A DNA stretch of 50,743 nucleotides. Source: Planctomycetaceae bacterium. Its GTDB lineage: Bacteria > Planctomycetota > Planctomycetia > Pirellulales > Pirellulaceae. The DNA lies in NCBI GenBank assembly GCA_024638965.1, contig JAHEJI010000014.1:1-50743 (forward strand). The letters run 5' to 3'. Positions 34,069 through 43,787 of the stretch are shown in pieces. The notes beneath the pieces are model-generated. The model was not told where the DNA came from, searched no databases, and saw only the letters and a list, made by a program, of their open reading frames with translations. Each line of letters opens with the position of its first letter. Positions within the stretch are counted from its first letter, which is position 1. The position numbers and the translations under genes were made by a program.

Positions 34069-34273
34069 GACAATAAGGCTTTCTGCACCAATGCACTCGC
34101 TTTTGGAAATTGCTTGGCAAACTTTCCGGCTTGTAGCGACTACATGAATTGTTACCGCTCAAGCGGATTGGTGAACGGGATCGGACGATAACAAAGAGTA
34201 CGCTCGATTGCGTCTTTACTTCTTTGCACATAATCCGGGCGCGTATTTGCCGACAAGTTCAAGGATGAACGAA

Positions 34274-35755
34274 ATGCCGTGGCGATTGTCAATACTAACC
34301 TGTTGGGCAGTGATGGTCTCAATCGTTTCGTTTTCACTTGGTTGTCGATCAGGCGGTCATACGAATGACGAACGATATAATCGGTTGTCGAGCACCTATA
34401 TTAATGCGCAAAATCAACCTACGTACGCGTCCACACCAGTTTTCGAGCAATTCAGCGGACCTCATTCGATTGAGGAGTATTTGCAACTCGGTTTGAAGCA
34501 GAATCCTGAAATCCAGGAAGTTCGATTGATGGTCGAATCATTGGCCAATCGAGTACCGCAGGCTGCATCACTACCCGATCCAATGCTGGGAGCAACTGTG
34601 TTTCCTTCCCCCGTCCAAACCGCTGCTGGCGAGCAGGATTTTGCTCTTTCGATGAATCAAAAAATTCCCTGGCGAGGAAAACTGGCAACGCGCGCGGCCG
34701 TCGCTGAGCAAGACGTTAACGCTGCGCGTGCGCGACTAGCCGCTGTGGAATTGAAGGTAGCTGAACAAATCAAGAATGCCTATTTCCAACTCTACTTCCT
34801 ACAGCAAGCGATCTCGATTATCGAAAACGACAAAGAACAACTTGCATTTATTGAGTCGGTTGTTCGACCGATGTATGAAGTTAAACGTGATGTAACTCAG
34901 CAGGATTTATTGCAGGTTCAAGTTGCACTCTCTCGGCTCGACTCGGAATGGGTCAATTTTCAGCAGCAAAAGGATAGCGCGCAAGCGCGGCTTGCCCGCT
35001 TGCTCCATGTTTCGCCTGAAACCAGACCTGAGGCAATGGACAGTTTGCCCCCGGAACAAACCGTTCAAGATGTTCAGCTGCTGTATGAATTGGCCATTCA
35101 GGCACGACCTGAACTGCACGCCCAATTGGCGACGATTGAAAAGGACCGGCGTGCAGCATGCCTGGCAGAACTCAACAATTGCCCCGATCTGACATTTGGT
35201 TTCAACTGGATAGCAACATCCCAGGACGGAATAAGTCCAGTCGCCAATGGGGATGATGCCTTCATGCTGACCCTGGGCATGAACCTGCCGGTGTATAAGA
35301 AGCGGATCGACGCGGGAGTTCGCGAAGCACATACCCGTGCCCTTTCAAACGCACGAAAATACGACCGCCTGAAAGACGAAACAATAGAAGGTGTCGCTGA
35401 TCTTTTTGCAAAGATCAAAAGCCAGCAAGAGAATCTTCGTCTGTTTCGTAATGACATCATACCCAAACAAGAATTGACAGTCAGTCAGTCCTTAAGCGAC
35501 TATCGTGTGAATAAAGTCGACATATTACAAGTATTAGAAAACTGGCGTCAACTGCTCCGCTTTCACATCGCTGAAAAGCGCTTCGAAACCGACTTGCAAC
35601 AGTCGCTCGCTTCTTTGGCGCGACAAATTGGAAGCTTTGAACTACCAGCCGATACGGCGGCGAGAGAACCAGTCCCAGAGTCGCCTCGAGGCGAATCCAA
35701 TGCAGACAATCAAATCGATGAAGCGACCAAAAACGGATCAGAAGATGTACGGTAA
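34274..35755 (+). CDS. cusC: TolC-like outer-membrane efflux lipoprotein
   Basis: This 493-residue protein is the outer-membrane channel of an RND efflux complex. Residues 1-24 are a lipoprotein signal ending in SFSLGC, with Cys24 as the acylation site, as in CusC. The OEP family pattern follows: SIEEYLQLGLKQNPEIQEVR, then VAEQDVNAARARLAAVELKV and the second half with ELHAQLATIEKDRRAACLAE. The fold is expected to be a beta barrel with long helices. ATG at 34274 has AAGGA upstream; the frame could begin at TTG 34208 or ATG 34265. The next gene overlaps its end by 11 bases. The symbol is assigned by cluster context. Confidence 0.9.
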   Translation: MPWRLSILTCWAVMVSIVSFSLGCRSGGHTNDERYNRLSSTYINAQNQPTYASTPVFEQFSGPHSIEEYLQLGLKQNPEIQEVRLMVESLANRVPQAASLPDPMLGATVFPSPVQTAAGEQDFALSMNQKIPWRGKLATRAAVAEQDVNAARARLAAVELKVAEQIKNAYFQLYFLQQAISIIENDKEQLAFIESVVRPMYEVKRDVTQQDLLQVQVALSRLDSEWVNFQQQKDSAQARLARLLHVSPETRPEAMDSLPPEQTVQDVQLLYELAIQARPELHAQLATIEKDRRAACLAELNNCPDLTFGFNWIATSQDGISPVANGDDAFMLTLGMNLPVYKKRIDAGVREAHTRALSNARKYDRLKDETIEGVADLFAKIKSQQENLRLFRNDIIPKQELTVSQSLSDYRVNKVDILQVLENWRQLLRFHIAEKRFETDLQQSLASLARQIGSFELPADTAAREPVPESPRGESNADNQIDEATKNGSEDVR

Positions 35756-36110
35756 GATTAGAAAAAAAATAAGCAAACCAGAACGTGAGAGGCACAAAAG
35801 GATCGGACGTTTCCTTCGCGCTGTCAGCCTCCTGTCGCTGGTCGCGCTCCAGGGATGCGCGTCATCTTACAATTGCTACCCTTGCGGTAAAGTAAATTGC
35901 GACTACTGTCCGCCAAAACCGCTGCCGTATTCCGACTTTCAATCATGCAATTGTAACGATTCGATTGGCCAAGCTTATCTGACAACCCTGTCGACTCCTG
36001 AATACCAGAAATCCACTTCTGAAATGGTGCCGCGTTTGGACTATGAAATGACTGTTTCTGATGGACAGAATGAGGCTAACGACGAAAAACCAGACAGTCC
36101 TGACGAATAA
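35745..36110 (+). CDS. Small Cys-containing lipoprotein of the metal-efflux cluster
   Basis: This 121-residue protein begins with a basic segment and a lipobox signal (LLSLVALQGC, Cys near residue 38). The mature part starts with SSYNCYPCGKVNCDYCPPKP, giving four Cys plus a CNC motif near SCNCND, so a metal-binding head is likely. The C-terminal third is acidic and polar. The start at 35745 overlaps the stop of the TolC gene by 11 bases, which suggests translational coupling. It lies in the same cluster as the 13-Cys exported protein. No known family. Confidence 0.7.
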   Translation: MYGKIRKKISKPERERHKRIGRFLRAVSLLSLVALQGCASSYNCYPCGKVNCDYCPPKPLPYSDFQSCNCNDSIGQAYLTTLSTPEYQKSTSEMVPRLDYEMTVSDGQNEANDEKPDSPDE

Positions 36111-36881: not shown

Positions 36882-39290
36882 ATGTCCCAAGAACAAAAAA
36901 CACAAACAACCGATGCTGAATCCAACGAAACGCAAACGGCCAACGTGTCAAGCGTTCCGACGGCCGAGTTACGCAGACGGCTGCGAGCGAGAGTTGCCTG
37001 GTGGTTCAAGCTTTTCGCGCAGCCCGTGCTGGCAATCATTGCAATTATCGCAGTCGTGTTTGCGTTTGGAGTTGCCCAACAATACGGCTGGTTTACTTCG
37101 CCCGTACAGACCGCAGCTGAAACCGAAAATGCTGTGGAAGAAGTTCAATACATTTGCCCGATGGTTTGCGTTCCGCCGACAACCGAACCTGGAAAATGTC
37201 CGGTCTGCGGAATGGAACTGAAGGCGAAGAAAGCTTCAGGTGATTCGAAAGATAAGTACGGGCTCAGGCTTGATCAAGCTTCAATTCGGGTTGCCAATAT
37301 TCGAACCGTGAAAGCCGAAGCAAAACCATTAATCAGGAAGTTACGCACGTTAGGACAGATTAGTTACGATGAAGGCTCTTTGGCTACGATTTCGGCCTAC
37401 GTCGATGGGCGAATCGAAAAACTATTCGCAGACTACACTGGCGTTAGAATCGACGATGGTGACGAACTGGCACTCTTGTACTCTCCAGATTTGTATACCA
37501 GTCAGGTGGCCCTGCTCGAATCCTTGAAACTCTTGAACAGCAGTCGATCGACCAGCCGGCGTATCGACGATTCAAACCGGCAACTTTATGAAAGCTCCAG
37601 GCAGCGATTGATCGAGTTGGGTTTGACAGAAAACCAAATCCAACAACTTGAAACAGAAGGCACGGCCGATAGTCGCATTCGAATTGTCTCGCCGATTGCC
37701 GGTACGGTAATAGAGAAGATGGCCGACAAGGGTCAGAACATCAAGACTGGACAAGCTATCTATCGAGTTGCTGATTTGTCAAGCGTTTGGTTGATGTTGG
37801 AGTTGCTGCCCCAAGACGCGGCAAAGATATGTTTTGGCCAAAAAGTCACGACCAGGATTCAATCACACCCGGGACAAGAGTTTATCGGCCGCGTTGCATT
37901 TATTGACCCTACCGTTGACCCGAAAACACAAACGGTTCGGGTCCGGGTCGTTATTCCGAACGAGAAAGGACTAATTCGAGTCGGCGATTTTGCGACGGCT
38001 TCAATCGATATCAGCGCAAGTTCGCCAAGTGATCAGAAAGCCGCTGTTTATGACCCTGACCTGGCAGGCAAATGGATCAGCCCTCGACATCCGCACGTCA
38101 TTAGCGATGGGCCTGGCCAATGCACCGAGTGCGGAATGGATCTCGTACCAACGTCAGAATTTGGTTTCGTCTCCGCACCAATCACCGAGCAAAACTATGT
38201 CGTCGTTCCACGGAATTCAGTTCTGATGGCAGGTAGAGACAGTGTAGTTTATGTCGAAACGGAGCCCGGGAGATTTGAATTTCGAGTCGTGGAGGTTGGT
38301 CAAATCGTTGGCGACAGTGTTTCGATCATCAGCGGAGTTGAGCCAGGGGAATTCGTTGCCTCATCGGCGACTTTCCTGGTTGACTCGCAGTTCAATATGT
38401 CCGGCAAACCGTCGCTGATTGACCCCGCCAGAGCTTTGCCGTCGATGGAACCGGAGATTGACACGGTCAATTCAGCAGAGCTGATGGCGGTCCTTTCCGA
38501 TTTGACCAAAGACGAACAGGCCGAAGTACTGAAACAAAAAATTTGTCCCGTGACTGAAACGGCTTTGGGCTCCATGGGCACGCCACTTCCGGTTGACATC
38601 AACGGAAGAAGAATCTGGATTTGTTGTAAAGGATGTGAAGCAGGTCTCTTGCATAATCCTGACAAGTACATCGCCACCCTTGAAAAAGCCGCGACGGACG
38701 ACGCGGAAGAAGCCATTAAAATCAACGAAGCCATGGCTGGGCTATCAAACGAAGACCGCGAATTGGCTGAAGCTCAAAAGTTTTGTCCCGTCGCCAACTA
38801 CGCGCTTGGCTCGATGGGAACGCCGCTTAAAGTCGATGTTGATGGCCAACCAGTTTTTATTTGCTGCAACGGGTGCCGCGACAGCCTGTTGAAAGATCCA
38901 CGGAAGTATTTGGATATCCTGGCCAACGGACCTCAAGCAACAGACACTGAATCCAACGAACTTCCTCAGATCCAACCGCTCGATGATGACCTTCCTGTAA
39001 TGGTGCTCCCGCAGATGACTGCGCATGAAAGTGCGATTGGAGGACAAAATGACGATAAAGAAGAAGAAATCGCCGCAGCAATTGCCTCGCTTTCAATTGT
39101 AGATCAAGAGTTGGTGCGCAGGCAAAAACTCTGTCCTGTGGCCGATTTTCCGCTGGGAGGTATGGGGACGCCGATCAAAGTCGATGTCAACGGCCAGCCA
39201 GTTTTTATCTGCTGCGAAGGTTGCCGCGGTGCTCTGCTCAAGGAGCCGGCAAAGTATTTGGCCAAGTTGCCCAAGGAACCGGTCAAATGA
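36882..39290 (+). CDS. cusB: CusB-like RND adaptor with three C-terminal Cys modules
   Basis: This 802-residue periplasmic adaptor is unusually long; CusB is about 407. A membrane anchor lies at residues 40-64. A heavy-metal-binding domain (YICPMVCVPP, then CPVCGMELK) is at about 88-117. The HlyD-type barrel-sandwich (GTVIEKMADKGQNIKTGQAI) follows, with a second, degenerate HMBD (CTECGMDLVP) near 397-428. From residue 549 on there are three copies of a C-x25-CCxxC module with LGSMGTP, starting near 553, 633 and 749. Each copy ends with an L-x-(D/P)-KY-like tail. It should bind Cu or Ag ions. ATG at 36882 follows GGGTGG; the stop overlaps the pump start. Confidence 0.93.
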   Translation: MSQEQKTQTTDAESNETQTANVSSVPTAELRRRLRARVAWWFKLFAQPVLAIIAIIAVVFAFGVAQQYGWFTSPVQTAAETENAVEEVQYICPMVCVPPTTEPGKCPVCGMELKAKKASGDSKDKYGLRLDQASIRVANIRTVKAEAKPLIRKLRTLGQISYDEGSLATISAYVDGRIEKLFADYTGVRIDDGDELALLYSPDLYTSQVALLESLKLLNSSRSTSRRIDDSNRQLYESSRQRLIELGLTENQIQQLETEGTADSRIRIVSPIAGTVIEKMADKGQNIKTGQAIYRVADLSSVWLMLELLPQDAAKICFGQKVTTRIQSHPGQEFIGRVAFIDPTVDPKTQTVRVRVVIPNEKGLIRVGDFATASIDISASSPSDQKAAVYDPDLAGKWISPRHPHVISDGPGQCTECGMDLVPTSEFGFVSAPITEQNYVVVPRNSVLMAGRDSVVYVETEPGRFEFRVVEVGQIVGDSVSIISGVEPGEFVASSATFLVDSQFNMSGKPSLIDPARALPSMEPEIDTVNSAELMAVLSDLTKDEQAEVLKQKICPVTETALGSMGTPLPVDINGRRIWICCKGCEAGLLHNPDKYIATLEKAATDDAEEAIKINEAMAGLSNEDRELAEAQKFCPVANYALGSMGTPLKVDVDGQPVFICCNGCRDSLLKDPRKYLDILANGPQATDTESNELPQIQPLDDDLPVMVLPQMTAHESAIGGQNDDKEEEIAAAIASLSIVDQELVRRQKLCPVADFPLGGMGTPIKVDVNGQPVFICCEGCRGALLKEPAKYLAKLPKEPVK

Positions 39291-42200
39291 TCCAAAAGAT
39301 TGTTGAATTCTGTGTTCGCGAGCGTTTGGTGGTGCTGCTTGGTGTTGCGGCAATCATCGGATACGGCTGGCATTCATTCAAGGAAGTTCCCCTGGATGCA
39401 ATTCCTAACGTCAGCGAAAATCAGGTCATCGTTCTGACCGAGTGGCCTGGCCGTAGCCCGAAAGATATCGAAGACCAGATTACGTATCCACTTTCCGTGG
39501 CACTGCAATCGGTAGCAGGAGCTGAAAGCGTTCGAGGCAAAAGCATGTTTGGCTTTAGTTTCGTTCAAGTCACGTTCGCCGATAGCGTGGATTTCTATTG
39601 GGCTCGTTCGCGAGTATCGGAACAGCTTTCAACGGCAACCAAGCAGCTTCCAGAAAACGTAAACCCGATGTTGGCCCCCGATGCCACTGCTTTGGGACAA
39701 ATCTTTTATTACGTTTTGGATCCACCAGAAGGGATGAATCTGGCAGATGTTCGGAGCAAGCAGGACTATGTCGTCAAATACGCTTTGCAATCAGTCGAAG
39801 GAGTAGCCGAAGTTGCCTCAATTGGCGGTTACGTTCGGCAATATCAAATCGACGTTGACCCCGATCGCTTGCGTTATCACAACTTGACCTTGGAAAAGGT
39901 CCTGATGTCGGTGCGTGACTCAAACATTGATGTCGGCGCAAAAACGGTTGAAACCGGTGGTATGGAATTCCTGGTGCGTGGCATTGGCTTCATCGGCGCT
40001 GGCAAAACGCTTGAGGAGACGCTCGAACAAATCGAGCAAACCGTGATCGTCACGCGAGATTCGATTCCCGTTCAAATCCGCGATGTGGCAACTGTGCAGG
40101 TTGGCCCTGCGTTCAGGCGCGGTGCGTTGGACTGGAACGGCAGCGAAGCTGTTGGCGGCGTCGTTGTCATGCGTTACGGCGAAAATCCTCGCGCGGTCAT
40201 TAAAAGGGTCAAAGCCAAAATTGCTTCGCTTGAAAATGAATTGAGCGGTATCAAGATTCGCGGGATTTATGACCGAACTGAACTCGTTGATGAAACGGTT
40301 GCAACTCTCTCCACCGCTTTGTGGCAGCAGATCCTGATTACCGTCGTTGTGGTCGTTCTGTTTTTGTTGCACATCCGCTCGAGTATTGCGATTGCAGTCA
40401 CGTTGCCGCTGGCTGTGCTGATGGCTTTTATTGCGATGAATGTGTTTGGTGTCGACGCAAACATCATGTCGCTGGCCGGCATTGCCATTGCCATCGGCAC
40501 GATGGTCGATATGGCAATCATCATTTCCGAAAACATCTATCGACATCTTGCCAGTTGGGAATCAAACGGACGTCCGGAAGGATCGGAGGGGCGAGTCTCT
40601 ACGATTTGTAAAGCCGCTGGTGAAGTCGCGCCGGCAGTTGTCACAGCCGTCAGTACGACCGTGATTAGTTTTCTGCCTGTCTTCTTTTTGACGGGGCGTG
40701 ATTACCGACTGTTTTCGCCTCTGGCTTGGACAAAAACCTATGCGTTGGTGGCCAGCCTGATCGTGGCAATCATGGTTGTGCCTGTCCTTTCTAGGATTTT
40801 TCTGACTTCGGGCAAGCGGCAACGTTGGACAGGACTGTTGGTTGGCGGTGTATTTGCGGTCAATCTGGGTTTCCTGGCGGCGTTTGTTTGGCGGGAGCAA
40901 ATCGAACAACTCGTTTCGATTTCCCCGTATATTGTCGCAGGCATTATCGGTTTGACTGGAGGATTGGCCGCTTACTGGATGATGCAAGAACGGGTTCGGC
41001 CTGTTGATGTTAATCCGGTTTCCAGGGTGGTCAACTTTCTCTACGAGCCGACGCTTCGACTATTCCTTCGGTACAAAAAAACGTTTCTTGCAGTACCAGC
41101 ATTTGTTGTCTTTCTGGGAGCCGGAGCGTGGCTGGGACTGCCAACGATTCTGTACCCGTTTGAGCAGTCAGCCAAATGGGTGGGCGCAGACTTCAACAAA
41201 TCAGATGACTATGTTGACTTGAAACACCAGCTCACGGGACTTTCAACCGACGATTGGATCGCACTCGACGAAGGCAGTTGGTTTTACATGCCCAGTCTCT
41301 ATCCAGCCGCCAGCTTCACGCAAGCCATGGAAGTTTTGCAAACCCAGGACACGATGATCAAGGAGATTCCCGAAGTCAGCGAAGTATTGGGAAAAATTGG
41401 CCGTGTCGAATCGGCATTGGATCCGGCACCAGCGGCCATGATCGAAACGTATGTCATGCTCAAACCAAAATCGGAATGGCGAGAGGGCATGACGGAAAAG
41501 ATGATTTGGGAAGAGATCAACGACGTCGCCACGCTGCCTGGAATTACGATGGCAGACGAGCTTCAGCCGATCGAAGGGCGTGTGGTGATGCTTCAAAGCG
41601 GCATCAAGGCTTCGATGGCCATTCGAATTTATGGTGATACTCTCGAAGGTCTTTCCGTTGCAGCAAAGGCAGTCGCAGAAAAACTGAAAGATCACCCGAT
41701 GGTCAACCCCGGAACGGTCAGCCCGGACATTGTTCTTGGCAAACCGTATTACGAATTCGAAGTTGATCGCCTGGAATCTGCCCGCTACGGAATGACGGTC
41801 AAACAAGTTAACCAAGTGATTGAAGCGGCGCTCGGCGGAATGAACGCGACAACGACAGTTGAAGGGCGCGAACGTTACCCGGTTCAGGTTCGGTACCGGC
41901 GAGACTTGCGAGAAAACATAGATTCACTTCATGCGATCCCGGTCGTGACCAACACAGGTGATATTGTAACCCTGGAAAATCTCGCCTCGATCAAAACGAC
42001 TTGGGGTCCGCCCGTGATCAACAGTGAAGACGCACGCTTGGTTGCACACGTCGCGTTTGCTCCAACCCAGGGGATGGGTGCGTTGGAAGTTGTAGACGGA
42101 GTAATGGGATCGCTTAGATCAGCGCGCCAAATCGCCGAGCACGGTGGCGAAGGCGGACTAGTGTTTCCCAAAGATGGAAGTTTCGAACTTGAAGCAGTGG

Positions 42201-42790
42201 GGTCGTTCCAAAATCAAATTGAAGCCAACAACCGATTGATGTTGATCATCCCCGTCGTTTTGCTACTCAACATTTTCATCATCTATCTGCAATTCAGGAC
42301 GTTGCCAATCACGCTCACAATTTTTGCTGGCATTCCTGTCGCTTTTGGCGGTGGCATGATCGCTCTGGCAATTGCCGGCGTGCAACTCAACACTGCTGTA
42401 TGGGTCGGTTTTATTGCCCTATTTGGCATCGCGATCGACGACGGCGTTGTGATTGCGACTTATTTGGATCAATCGCTGAAGGATCGACGACTCGGCAACA
42501 TCAAAGATATCAGGGACGCAACCGTTAAGGCTGGCTTAATGCGTATTCGGCCTTGTTTGATGACCACATTTACCACGGTGATTGCTCTTTTGCCGGTGTT
42601 ATACGCGACGGGGCGAGGAGCCGATGTGGCGCGAGCGATGGCGATTCCAGTTTTTGGTGGCATGCTCGTCGAACTTGTAACTCTATTCGTCGTACCCGTT
42701 GTTTATTGCGGATATATGGAATTCAAAATGAATGCAGGATTCCCAGACAAGCGATTCGAACGAATTCACTTGCTTGACGAGGCAGCATGA
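39287..42790 (+). CDS. cusA: CusA/CzcA-family heavy-metal RND pump
   Basis: This 1167-residue inner-membrane transporter is of the HAE/HME RND type. The N-terminus reads IVEFCVRERLVVLLGVA. The porter blocks SVAGAESVRGKSMFGFSFVQ and PDRLRYHNLTLEKVLMSV are present, as is TM4 with AIGTMVDMAIIISEN. The string VVMLQSGIKASM matches the CusA MLATGIK block with its methionine, so monovalent Cu/Ag is more likely than Zn/Co/Cd. TM10 reads GIAIDDGVVI where E. coli CusA has an Ala-Glu-Phe-Gly motif. A longer region between TM6 and TM7 makes it longer than the usual 1047. ATG at 39287 overlaps the adaptor stop as ATGA with AAGGA upstream. The earlier ATG at 39221 lies inside the adaptor gene. Confidence 0.95.
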   Translation: MIQKIVEFCVRERLVVLLGVAAIIGYGWHSFKEVPLDAIPNVSENQVIVLTEWPGRSPKDIEDQITYPLSVALQSVAGAESVRGKSMFGFSFVQVTFADSVDFYWARSRVSEQLSTATKQLPENVNPMLAPDATALGQIFYYVLDPPEGMNLADVRSKQDYVVKYALQSVEGVAEVASIGGYVRQYQIDVDPDRLRYHNLTLEKVLMSVRDSNIDVGAKTVETGGMEFLVRGIGFIGAGKTLEETLEQIEQTVIVTRDSIPVQIRDVATVQVGPAFRRGALDWNGSEAVGGVVVMRYGENPRAVIKRVKAKIASLENELSGIKIRGIYDRTELVDETVATLSTALWQQILITVVVVVLFLLHIRSSIAIAVTLPLAVLMAFIAMNVFGVDANIMSLAGIAIAIGTMVDMAIIISENIYRHLASWESNGRPEGSEGRVSTICKAAGEVAPAVVTAVSTTVISFLPVFFLTGRDYRLFSPLAWTKTYALVASLIVAIMVVPVLSRIFLTSGKRQRWTGLLVGGVFAVNLGFLAAFVWREQIEQLVSISPYIVAGIIGLTGGLAAYWMMQERVRPVDVNPVSRVVNFLYEPTLRLFLRYKKTFLAVPAFVVFLGAGAWLGLPTILYPFEQSAKWVGADFNKSDDYVDLKHQLTGLSTDDWIALDEGSWFYMPSLYPAASFTQAMEVLQTQDTMIKEIPEVSEVLGKIGRVESALDPAPAAMIETYVMLKPKSEWREGMTEKMIWEEINDVATLPGITMADELQPIEGRVVMLQSGIKASMAIRIYGDTLEGLSVAAKAVAEKLKDHPMVNPGTVSPDIVLGKPYYEFEVDRLESARYGMTVKQVNQVIEAALGGMNATTTVEGRERYPVQVRYRRDLRENIDSLHAIPVVTNTGDIVTLENLASIKTTWGPPVINSEDARLVAHVAFAPTQGMGALEVVDGVMGSLRSARQIAEHGGEGGLVFPKDGSFELEAVGSFQNQIEANNRLMLIIPVVLLLNIFIIYLQFRTLPITLTIFAGIPVAFGGGMIALAIAGVQLNTAVWVGFIALFGIAIDDGVVIATYLDQSLKDRRLGNIKDIRDATVKAGLMRIRPCLMTTFTTVIALLPVLYATGRGADVARAMAIPVFGGMLVELVTLFVVPVVYCGYMEFKMNAGFPDKRFERIHLLDEAA

Positions 42791-42914: not shown

Positions 42915-43787
42915 ATGAAAACGCTAATTGCTTCATTCGTCGTCGTTGCATTGATTTCAAATACTACAATTGCACAACAACATCAAGCTGGCCAGCCTCA
43001 ACATCAGGCTATGCAAATTCAAAAAAGCAACTTGACCAGTGCCGATCACTTGCAGATTGCAGTTCAAAAAATTTGTCCTGTAATGGGCTGCGAACTTGGT
43101 TCGATGGGTGAACCAATCAAAGTCCAGATGGGCGATCAATATGCTTACCTATGTTGCAAAGGATGTCTTGGCAAGCAACCCAAAGCCGAGCATTGGAAAA
43201 CGATTCAAGCGAACATTGCCAAGGCACAGGGAACTTGTCCCATCATGGGAAAACCAGTTTCAGCCGACATGAAATCAACGGTTGTAAACGGACAGCAGAT
43301 TTTCGTATGTTGCCCTCCCTGTATCGAAAAAATCCAGGCTGATCCCCAGACTGCTTTGACCAAGGTTAACGCTAGTTACGTTTCCTTTGTAGAGGCAGGA
43401 GCTCAAGCAAAAAGCGATCAATTGCACGTCGCCGCCCAAGGAATTTGTCCGGTCTCTGGGCGAAAGCTGGGCTCGATGGGCGCGCCGATCAAGGTCAAAG
43501 TTGGCGAAAAAGAACACGCTTTTCTTTGTTGCAAAGGCTGTCAAAGCAAACAACTTAGCGCCGAGCATTGGGCAACCGTGCAAGCCAACTTGGCAAAAGC
43601 CCAAGGCATTTGTCCGGTCATGGGCAAGCCCGTATCTGCCGACATGAAATCAACGGTGGTCAACGGTCGCAAGATTTTTGTTTGTTGTCCTCCCTGTATT
43701 GAAAAGATCAACGCAGATCCGTCCGGCTTCGTAGCAAAACTTGATGCTCAAATCGCAACGAATCACGCCGTTGGCCACGATGATTGA
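42915..43787 (+). CDS. Secreted four-module Cys protein of the Cu/Ag efflux cluster
   Basis: This 290-residue protein has a signal peptide (residues 1-20) and four C-x(n)-CCxxC modules: near 54-84, 108-136, 178-209 and 233-261. Modules 1 and 3 are of the LGSMGxP type, 2 and 4 of the GKPVSADMKSTVVNG type with VCCPPCIEK. Modules 1-2 and 3-4 are related by a 125-residue shift, so a 375-bp internal tandem duplication made the gene. The LGSMGxP module is the same kind as those in the adaptor. The ribosome site GGGAAACC precedes ATG 42915. It is probably a periplasmic metal store or chaperone that feeds the pump. Confidence 0.85.
   Translation: MKTLIASFVVVALISNTTIAQQHQAGQPQHQAMQIQKSNLTSADHLQIAVQKICPVMGCELGSMGEPIKVQMGDQYAYLCCKGCLGKQPKAEHWKTIQANIAKAQGTCPIMGKPVSADMKSTVVNGQQIFVCCPPCIEKIQADPQTALTKVNASYVSFVEAGAQAKSDQLHVAAQGICPVSGRKLGSMGAPIKVKVGEKEHAFLCCKGCQSKQLSAEHWATVQANLAKAQGICPVMGKPVSADMKSTVVNGRKIFVCCPPCIEKINADPSGFVAKLDAQIATNHAVGHDD

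Follow-up and report, generated by a model that had tools for sequence, protein, structure and literature searches.

Cys-rich TRASH-like modules at the C-terminus of a planctomycete CusB-like adaptor: a putative tethered metallochaperone for a CusA-type pump

The window analyzed here (the whole stretch of DNA, 50,743 nucleotides, from a Planctomycetaceae bacterium) contains a gene cluster encoding a TolC-like outer membrane factor, two small Cys-containing ORFs, a CusB-like adaptor, a CusA/CzcA-family RND pump and a secreted-looking protein with four TRASH-like modules (Table 1). Relatives of the putative lipoprotein ORF and of the small Cys-rich ORF were detected by blastp in 8 and 12 fetched loci, respectively. 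The pump gene likely begins at the start codon that overlaps the adaptor stop codon (39287). Its Met triad comprises residues 690, 740 and 790, numbered from the ORF listed at 39221, and these are aligned with residues 581, 631 and 680 of the E. coli CusA chain in 3k07 (counted by eye), which we take to be the native CusA triad 573/623/672. The pump is thus of the CusA type, passing the TIGR00914 cut-off and carrying three Met at the CusA site, and a CusB-like adaptor next to such a pump is what a first-pass annotation, made from the sequence alone, had described. The four-module protein, which was absent from that annotation, is composed of two alternating module types, and a phmmer search of it against the PDB returned weak matches, the first of which was ribosomal L24 (E 0.28).

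Table 1. Features of the adaptor locus (positions in the window)
Feature	Position	Strand	Basis
TolC-like outer membrane factor (OEP domains; start codon uncertain)	34208..35755	+	PF02321, 124 bits
Putative lipoprotein ORF, 7 Cys	35628..36110	+	Lipobox by eye; true start probably downstream of TTG
Small Cys-rich secreted-looking protein, 13 Cys in 157 aa	36231..36704	+	ORF list
CusB-like periplasmic adaptor, 802 aa, three-module C-terminal tail	36882..39290	+	PF16576, 204 bits; PF19335, 66 bits
HMBD-type motif, N-terminal (C92, C96, C106, C109)	37149..37220	+	PF19335; position by eye
HlyD_D23 barrel-sandwich region, residues 151-371	37332..37994	+	Pfam match
Second HMBD-like motif, residues 397-423 (C414, C417)	38070..38150	+	Best PF19335 stretch
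TRASH-like module 1 (C555, C581, C582, C585)	38496..38675	+	Repeat and profile; model pLDDT 93.4
TRASH-like module 2 (C635, C661, C662, C665)	38736..38915	+	Repeat and profile
TRASH-like module 3 (C751, C777, C778, C781)	39084..39263	+	Repeat and profile
CusA/CzcA-family RND pump with Met triad	39287..42790	+	TIGR00914, 813 bits (cut-off 701)
Secreted-looking protein, 290 aa, four TRASH-like modules	42915..43787	+	PF08394, 39 bits; PF24273, 36 bits (cut-off 27)

The adaptor has the features of the HME-RND class, namely a HlyD_D23 core, a CusB-like fold and an adjoining HME-RND pump, and scores 99.9 bits against the NCBIfam CusB model PRK09783, under its cut-off of 390. Two stretches of the protein match PF19335, and the four Cys of the N-terminal HMBD-type motif are kept in at least 90% of 33 aligned adaptors. 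A structural model of the full-length adaptor (mean pLDDT 79.5, pTM 0.48) comprises a long N-terminal helix (residues 28-67), a CusB-like body and three modules that are predicted well; confidence is low at residues 508-512, 518-530 and 685-722, between these parts, and its top PDB match is CusB 3ne5 (Foldseek E 9e-23). Judging from the N-terminal helix of this model, the tail would be located in the periplasm. The final 250 residues of the adaptor correspond to a stop-free frame (38538-39287). The closest locus (L035), titled uncultured Pirellulaceae, encodes a 95% identical adaptor, and represents a near-identical relative whose contig ends after its second module.

Past about residue 535, the tail consists of three modules of approximately 60 residues. 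In each, a helical lead-in precedes four Cys arranged as C-x25-CC-x2-C, and one Met is conserved. The first-pass annotation was correct in reporting three C-terminal copies; these start at K553/C555, K633/C635 and K749/C751 and have CC-x2-C at residues 581, 661 and 777. The motif LGSMGTP, which it had assigned to every copy, is LGGMGTP in copy 3; the module also begins earlier than had been stated, as two short helices precede the first Cys in the model. Among the three copies, 25 of 60 columns are invariant, and identity to copy 1 is 47-48%. The repeats are not a product of chance, since their best matches outside L035 have identities of 0.60, 0.72 and 0.69 for copies 1, 2 and 3, respectively; matches of the copies to their own profile (E <1e-36) arise by construction and add no proof. 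Within the same genome, all four matches to the tail lie in the adaptor itself and in the secreted four-module protein, and the three-copy profile gave six matches, those listed being the three copies and two in the secreted protein. A module tree contained too few columns to show whether module 3 copies module 2.

The putative ligand residues of the module are highly conserved. The 98 unique fused modules all retain the four Cys and one Met without exception, and no further Cys occurs in the aligned columns. The Cys are nearly invariant in 179 modules of non-fused ORFs as well (175/176, 179/179, 175/179 and 179/179 letters; modules from ORFs with no adaptor match were counted only above 15 bits), and their Met is variable (91/136 letters). 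A gapless alignment with ribosomal eL24 pairs the first module Cys with C6, the two Cys of the CC pair with C32 and S33, and the last Cys with C36. The second knuckle position (C9 of eL24) is occupied by T, A or another residue; Cys occurs there in none of the 98 unique fused modules and in 2 of the 179 others. The longer first spacing previously ascribed to the module vanishes when counting starts from ligand 1, as 25 residues also separate C6 and C32 of eL24 and D178 and C204 of the M. phlei YHS domain. The canonical TRASH/YHS ligand set, (C/D)-x2-C-x22-C-x3-C, is not found in the module: positions 1, 3 and 4 are kept, the Cys at position 2 is absent from fused modules and an additional Cys follows position 3. 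Because of this loss and this gain, we classify the module as TRASH-like and non-canonical.

The 250-residue tail matches PF12156 (33.7 bits) and PF08394 (32.7 bits) above the cut-off of 27, and the full adaptor gives 27.9 and 25.8 bits, respectively, against the same cut-off. Among 69 single modules, 9 matched YHS, 8 matched PF08394 and at most 19 matched any Pfam family at E 0.01; module 1 alone matched no Pfam family, and neither the NCBIfam scan of the tail nor the Pfam scan of single modules was useful for most modules. A profile of these 69 modules matched the PDB weakly (phenol-hydroxylase YHS region, E 0.05; eL24, E 0.29). The single-module model (pLDDT 93.4, pTM 0.80) contains helices at 2-9 and 12-21, strands at 38-42 and 45-49, and helices at 53-60 and 62-69. 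Its Foldseek matches are also weak (best E 0.099), with phenol hydroxylase first (prob 0.92, TMq 0.55) and eL24 lower. Sequence profiles and the model thus suggest a divergent, TRASH-like module that is weakly related to the TRASH/YHS/eL24 fold, so that the resemblance proposed in the first-pass annotation stands at the level of tail profiles and weak PDB matches and does not extend to the ligand set.

To examine the distribution of the module, 84,980 species genomes were scanned with patterns made from the three copies in the window; the result favors close relatives, because the patterns derive from the query and the best 80 of 83 confirmed stretches were kept. The scan kept 79 loci, 76 of which have planctomycete titles and three of which (L049, L050 and L056) have other titles. 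L049 (genome G454, titled Nealsonbacteria) and L050 (G453, titled Porticoccaceae) are planctomycete-like pump loci in metagenome-assembled genomes. G454 is 9.1 Mb in size, presumably a poor fit to Nealsonbacteria, and G453 has module matches on two contigs; it is possible that both loci are mislabelled or mis-binned. Of 392 genomes of the window's phylum, its own included, 209 had matches in a profile search, and many of the weaker matches lay in frames too short for an adaptor. In the phylum of G453, 2 of 200 genomes matched, namely G453 and one of the 199 others (G630, weakly), and a search of 72,556 plasmid records matched the tail in a single planctomycete record. A concentration in planctomycetes is supported by most loci and by the only plasmid match; the exceptions to the confinement that had been put forward as a check on the module are the three other titles and the weak match in G630. 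Among open-license PMC literature judged by title and the start of the abstract, no paper on such a fusion was found.

A pump-centered sample of the class was also assembled, which started from CusA relatives and thus avoided choosing loci by their modules. Such relatives were found in 96 of 98 genomes; the search scored at most seven best candidates per genome, so some pumps may be missed. The first group comprises all 32 listed pumps above 1550 bits, excluding that of the window, and the weaker groups comprise 28 hand-picked loci minus L162, which partially overlaps L126. Among the close CusA relatives of the first group, the adaptor is fused to the module in 12 of 32 cases, a stand-alone module ORF lies beside the adaptor in 9, and neither form is present in 11. 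Since 20 of these 32 adaptors are unfused and no adjoining module ORF was found for 11 of them, the module is dispensable for this pump class. Fusion was found in none of 7 adaptors in the second bit-score group, in 11 of 12 in the third, which is not a blind rate because at least two of the hand-picked loci (G369 C36 and G377 C133) were already known to hold modules, and in none of 8 in the fourth. By multiple alignment, the Met triad is present in all 51 sampled pumps of groups 1-3 and in none of the 8 pumps of the fourth group, which would be CzcA-like. A hint from pairwise alignment that the pumps of L164-L169 lack the full triad was discarded, as the multiple alignment shows it. The pump frames of the third group (L164-L175) are approximately 1350-1500 residues long, compared to 1055 residues in the CusA chain of 3k07.

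All 23 fused adaptors of this sample pair with Met-triad pumps, which agrees with the adjacency to CusA-type pumps suggested earlier; the module itself is often a stand-alone protein. The module is not special to this adaptor, and its number per adaptor ranges from one to three. All 12 fused close-relative adaptors have one module, 13 adaptors have two among the pattern-scan loci that match the adaptor body of the window above 350 bits, and three were seen in the adaptor of the window and in a single further lineage (L112 and L111, the latter being the same region as L020 and L175 and repeated in the copy-number rows and the module tree). Loci L001-L004, from the window's own genome, were left out of the copy-number and triad comparisons. 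Taken together, the adaptor-module architecture is real, conserved and centered on planctomycetes, and is not unique to the window.

The plasmid match is located on pPSMK1 of Phycisphaera mikurensis (NC_017081.1, L184), a planctomycete plasmid typed as conjugative that carries a copper-resistance cluster. It encodes a free module protein of 211 aa with two clear modules and one weak match, directly upstream of genes for TolC, the adaptor, a Met-triad CusA and a multicopper oxidase; approximately 7 kb upstream, the annotation lists a metal-sensitive regulator and a four-helix copper-binding protein. Compared to the window, the module protein likewise adjoins TolC, adaptor and Met-triad CusA genes, whereas it is separate, the adaptor carries no module and a multicopper oxidase gene follows. 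No CusF (PF11604, E 0.001) was detected in the genome of the window, which is 88.57% complete, or in any of 22 sampled genomes of its order, its own included. The idea that the module is a general replacement for CusF was ruled out, since the genomes of six fused loci of the f5 family (L164-L169) match CusF as well. PF11604 matches of this family (e.g., in L116-L118) lie in frames of approximately 320-500 residues, longer than free CusF, and are possibly another fusion.

Gene order links the fused adaptors to further module proteins. A two- or four-module ORF follows the pump in all 12 fused close-relative loci, as does the four-module ORF in the window. Among the 20 unfused close-relative loci, three have a module-bearing ORF in this place, with three, two and one modules (Fisher p 2e-6, kinship ignored); the fetched regions extend approximately 2.5 kb beyond most pumps, and unfused locus L154 ends just past its pump. 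This association does not reflect independent events, because the fused close-relative adaptors form one clade: in the adaptor-body tree, the 13 rows are grouped with an SH-aLRT of 97, and there are three sister rows, of which two have a stand-alone module gene and the third has none. In the pump tree, fused cases fall in two separate clades and three changes are needed. Both trees are quick ones without bootstrap and came with a program warning about long branches. This history would be accounted for by two gains and one loss, and possibly also by one early gain followed by several losses.

We consider it reasonably probable that the tail acts in the periplasm as a tethered metallochaperone for Cu(I)/Ag(I), analogous and not homologous to the C-terminal domain of SilB. 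The three TRASH-like modules, on flexible linkers, would bind soft metal ions through their Cys, most likely Cu(I)/Ag(I), and would present the bound metal to the neighboring CusA pump; the secreted four-module protein would probably exchange metal with the tail as an untethered shuttle or buffer. That the modules bind metal, which metal they bind, that they pass it to the pump and that the secreted protein is a partner are all inferred from this context, and zinc may also be the module metal. Copper or silver is favored because the partner pump has a Met triad, because no fusion was found at the eight triad-less pumps, and because of the pPSMK1 cluster. The same context, together with the SilB precedent and reports of metal in related domains, led us to choose the tethered chaperone: as stated in excerpts of PMC4626032, a crystal of ribosomal L24e shows Cd bound through four Cys and a YHS domain confers Cu-dependent activity on adenylyl cyclase, and the same excerpts state that copper binding by the YHS/TRASH domains of Cu-ATPases had not yet been shown. 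The chaperone reading is based on the invariant Cys and Met, the well-modelled module, the alternation of fused and separate forms and the gene order, and is weakened by the fold matches (no Foldseek E below 0.001) and by seven Met-triad pumps without fusion. A built-in scavenging arm, as the first-pass annotation had suggested, is plausible, and the context is a better match for metal hand-over to the pump than for scavenging alone.

Other explanations start from the same observations. The modules could be structural zinc treble clefs that mediate protein contacts, such as adaptor oligomerization or docking of the secreted protein, rather than carriers of the exported metal; their nearest folds are eL24 and the YHS-like regions of diiron hydroxylases, which are regarded as structural in their hosts, and the fused adaptor and the downstream module protein occur together in 12 of 12 sampled loci. 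The YHS domain of toluene-4-hydroxylase is also described as metal-free in its crystal, according to the excerpted text of PMC4626032. We regard this account as unlikely, given that the second Cys of CxxC is missing and an adjacent CC has been gained in all 98 fused modules, which would be odd for a structural site, and that in the sample fusion occurs only with Met-triad pumps and the free form lies in a copper-resistance cluster. Alternatively, the tail and the secreted protein might be a copper sponge that lowers free periplasmic metal, its placement on the adaptor being incidental. The variable number of modules (one to three in adaptors, two to four in the post-pump ORF of fused loci) and the further small Cys-rich ORFs in the cluster would suit a sponge, yet a stoichiometric sponge on an adaptor would give little extra capacity, and the two fused clades and three changes in the pump tree are consistent with repeated gain beside the pump; this account seems less likely still.

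A role in regulation rather than delivery is improbable. Here, the modules would be metal-sensing gates whose occupancy switches the adaptor and thereby activates the pump, for which the Cu-dependent adenylyl cyclase noted above and the activation of CusA by CusB, as described in excerpts of PMC4446572, offer precedents; however, the low-confidence stretches of the adaptor model speak against rigid allostery, and versions of the module encoded by separate genes occur. That the Cys pairs form periplasmic disulfides with a redox or purely structural, metal-free role, as the adjacent CC and the predicted periplasmic location might suggest, is very improbable in view of four Cys and a Met that are invariant in 98 of 98 modules, the relation to metal-binding folds and the copper-linked context.

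Returning to the tethered chaperone, the secreted multi-module protein and the tail suggest a shuttle-and-dock pair, on the basis of one clade. A broader proposal, which we consider possible and advance only tentatively, is that planctomycetes possess their own Cys-based relay for Cu(I)/Ag(I) in the periplasm, built on a new ligand set of C, CC-x2-C and a conserved Met in a TRASH-like fold. In this relay, free shuttles of two to four modules would load one to three related docking modules on the adaptor, in parallel and without homology to the CusF-to-CusB route, and the number of modules would tune capacity. If the tail does serve as a chaperone, it would be a second way, unrelated to that of SilB, of tying a metal chaperone to the adaptor in a heavy-metal pump system. 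Furthermore, the analysis gives a name to a module that is conserved, occurs mainly in planctomycetes and has a distinct ligand arrangement, and close relatives in which the module is either fused or separate are natural cis and trans variants for the study of periplasmic metal delivery to RND pumps.

An HME adaptor with a metal-handling domain is a known kind of protein; what sets the present one apart is its TRASH-like module with an unusual ligand arrangement. The module shares with the TRASH/YHS/eL24 group (PF08394, PF12156, PF24273 and PF04945) profile matches, the spacing of 25 between the first and third ligands, and a two-stranded hairpin followed by C-x3-C at the start of a helix, and differs from it in lacking the second knuckle Cys, in having a Cys beside the third ligand and a helical lead-in, and in the invariant Met of fused modules. 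Like E. coli CusCFBA, the window has a tripartite cluster with a CusB-like adaptor and a CusA-type permease with three Met; unlike it, no CusF was found, the adaptor combines HMBD Cys motifs with the module tail, and a secreted multi-module protein is encoded after the pump. CusF itself is called nonessential in excerpted text of PMC8277102. A precedent for the architecture is SilB of Cupriavidus metallidurans CH34, an HME adaptor whose C-terminal, CusF-like domain is implicated in metal chaperoning (excerpts of PMC4446572, citing Bersch et al. 2011). Both are metal-efflux RND adaptors with an added C-terminal metal-handling domain, homologues of which also occur as separate proteins, whereas the CusF beta-barrel domain (PF11604) was not found in the adaptor of the window: SilB has one CusF-type beta-barrel, and the adaptors described here have TRASH-like modules, rich in Cys and different in fold, in one to three copies.
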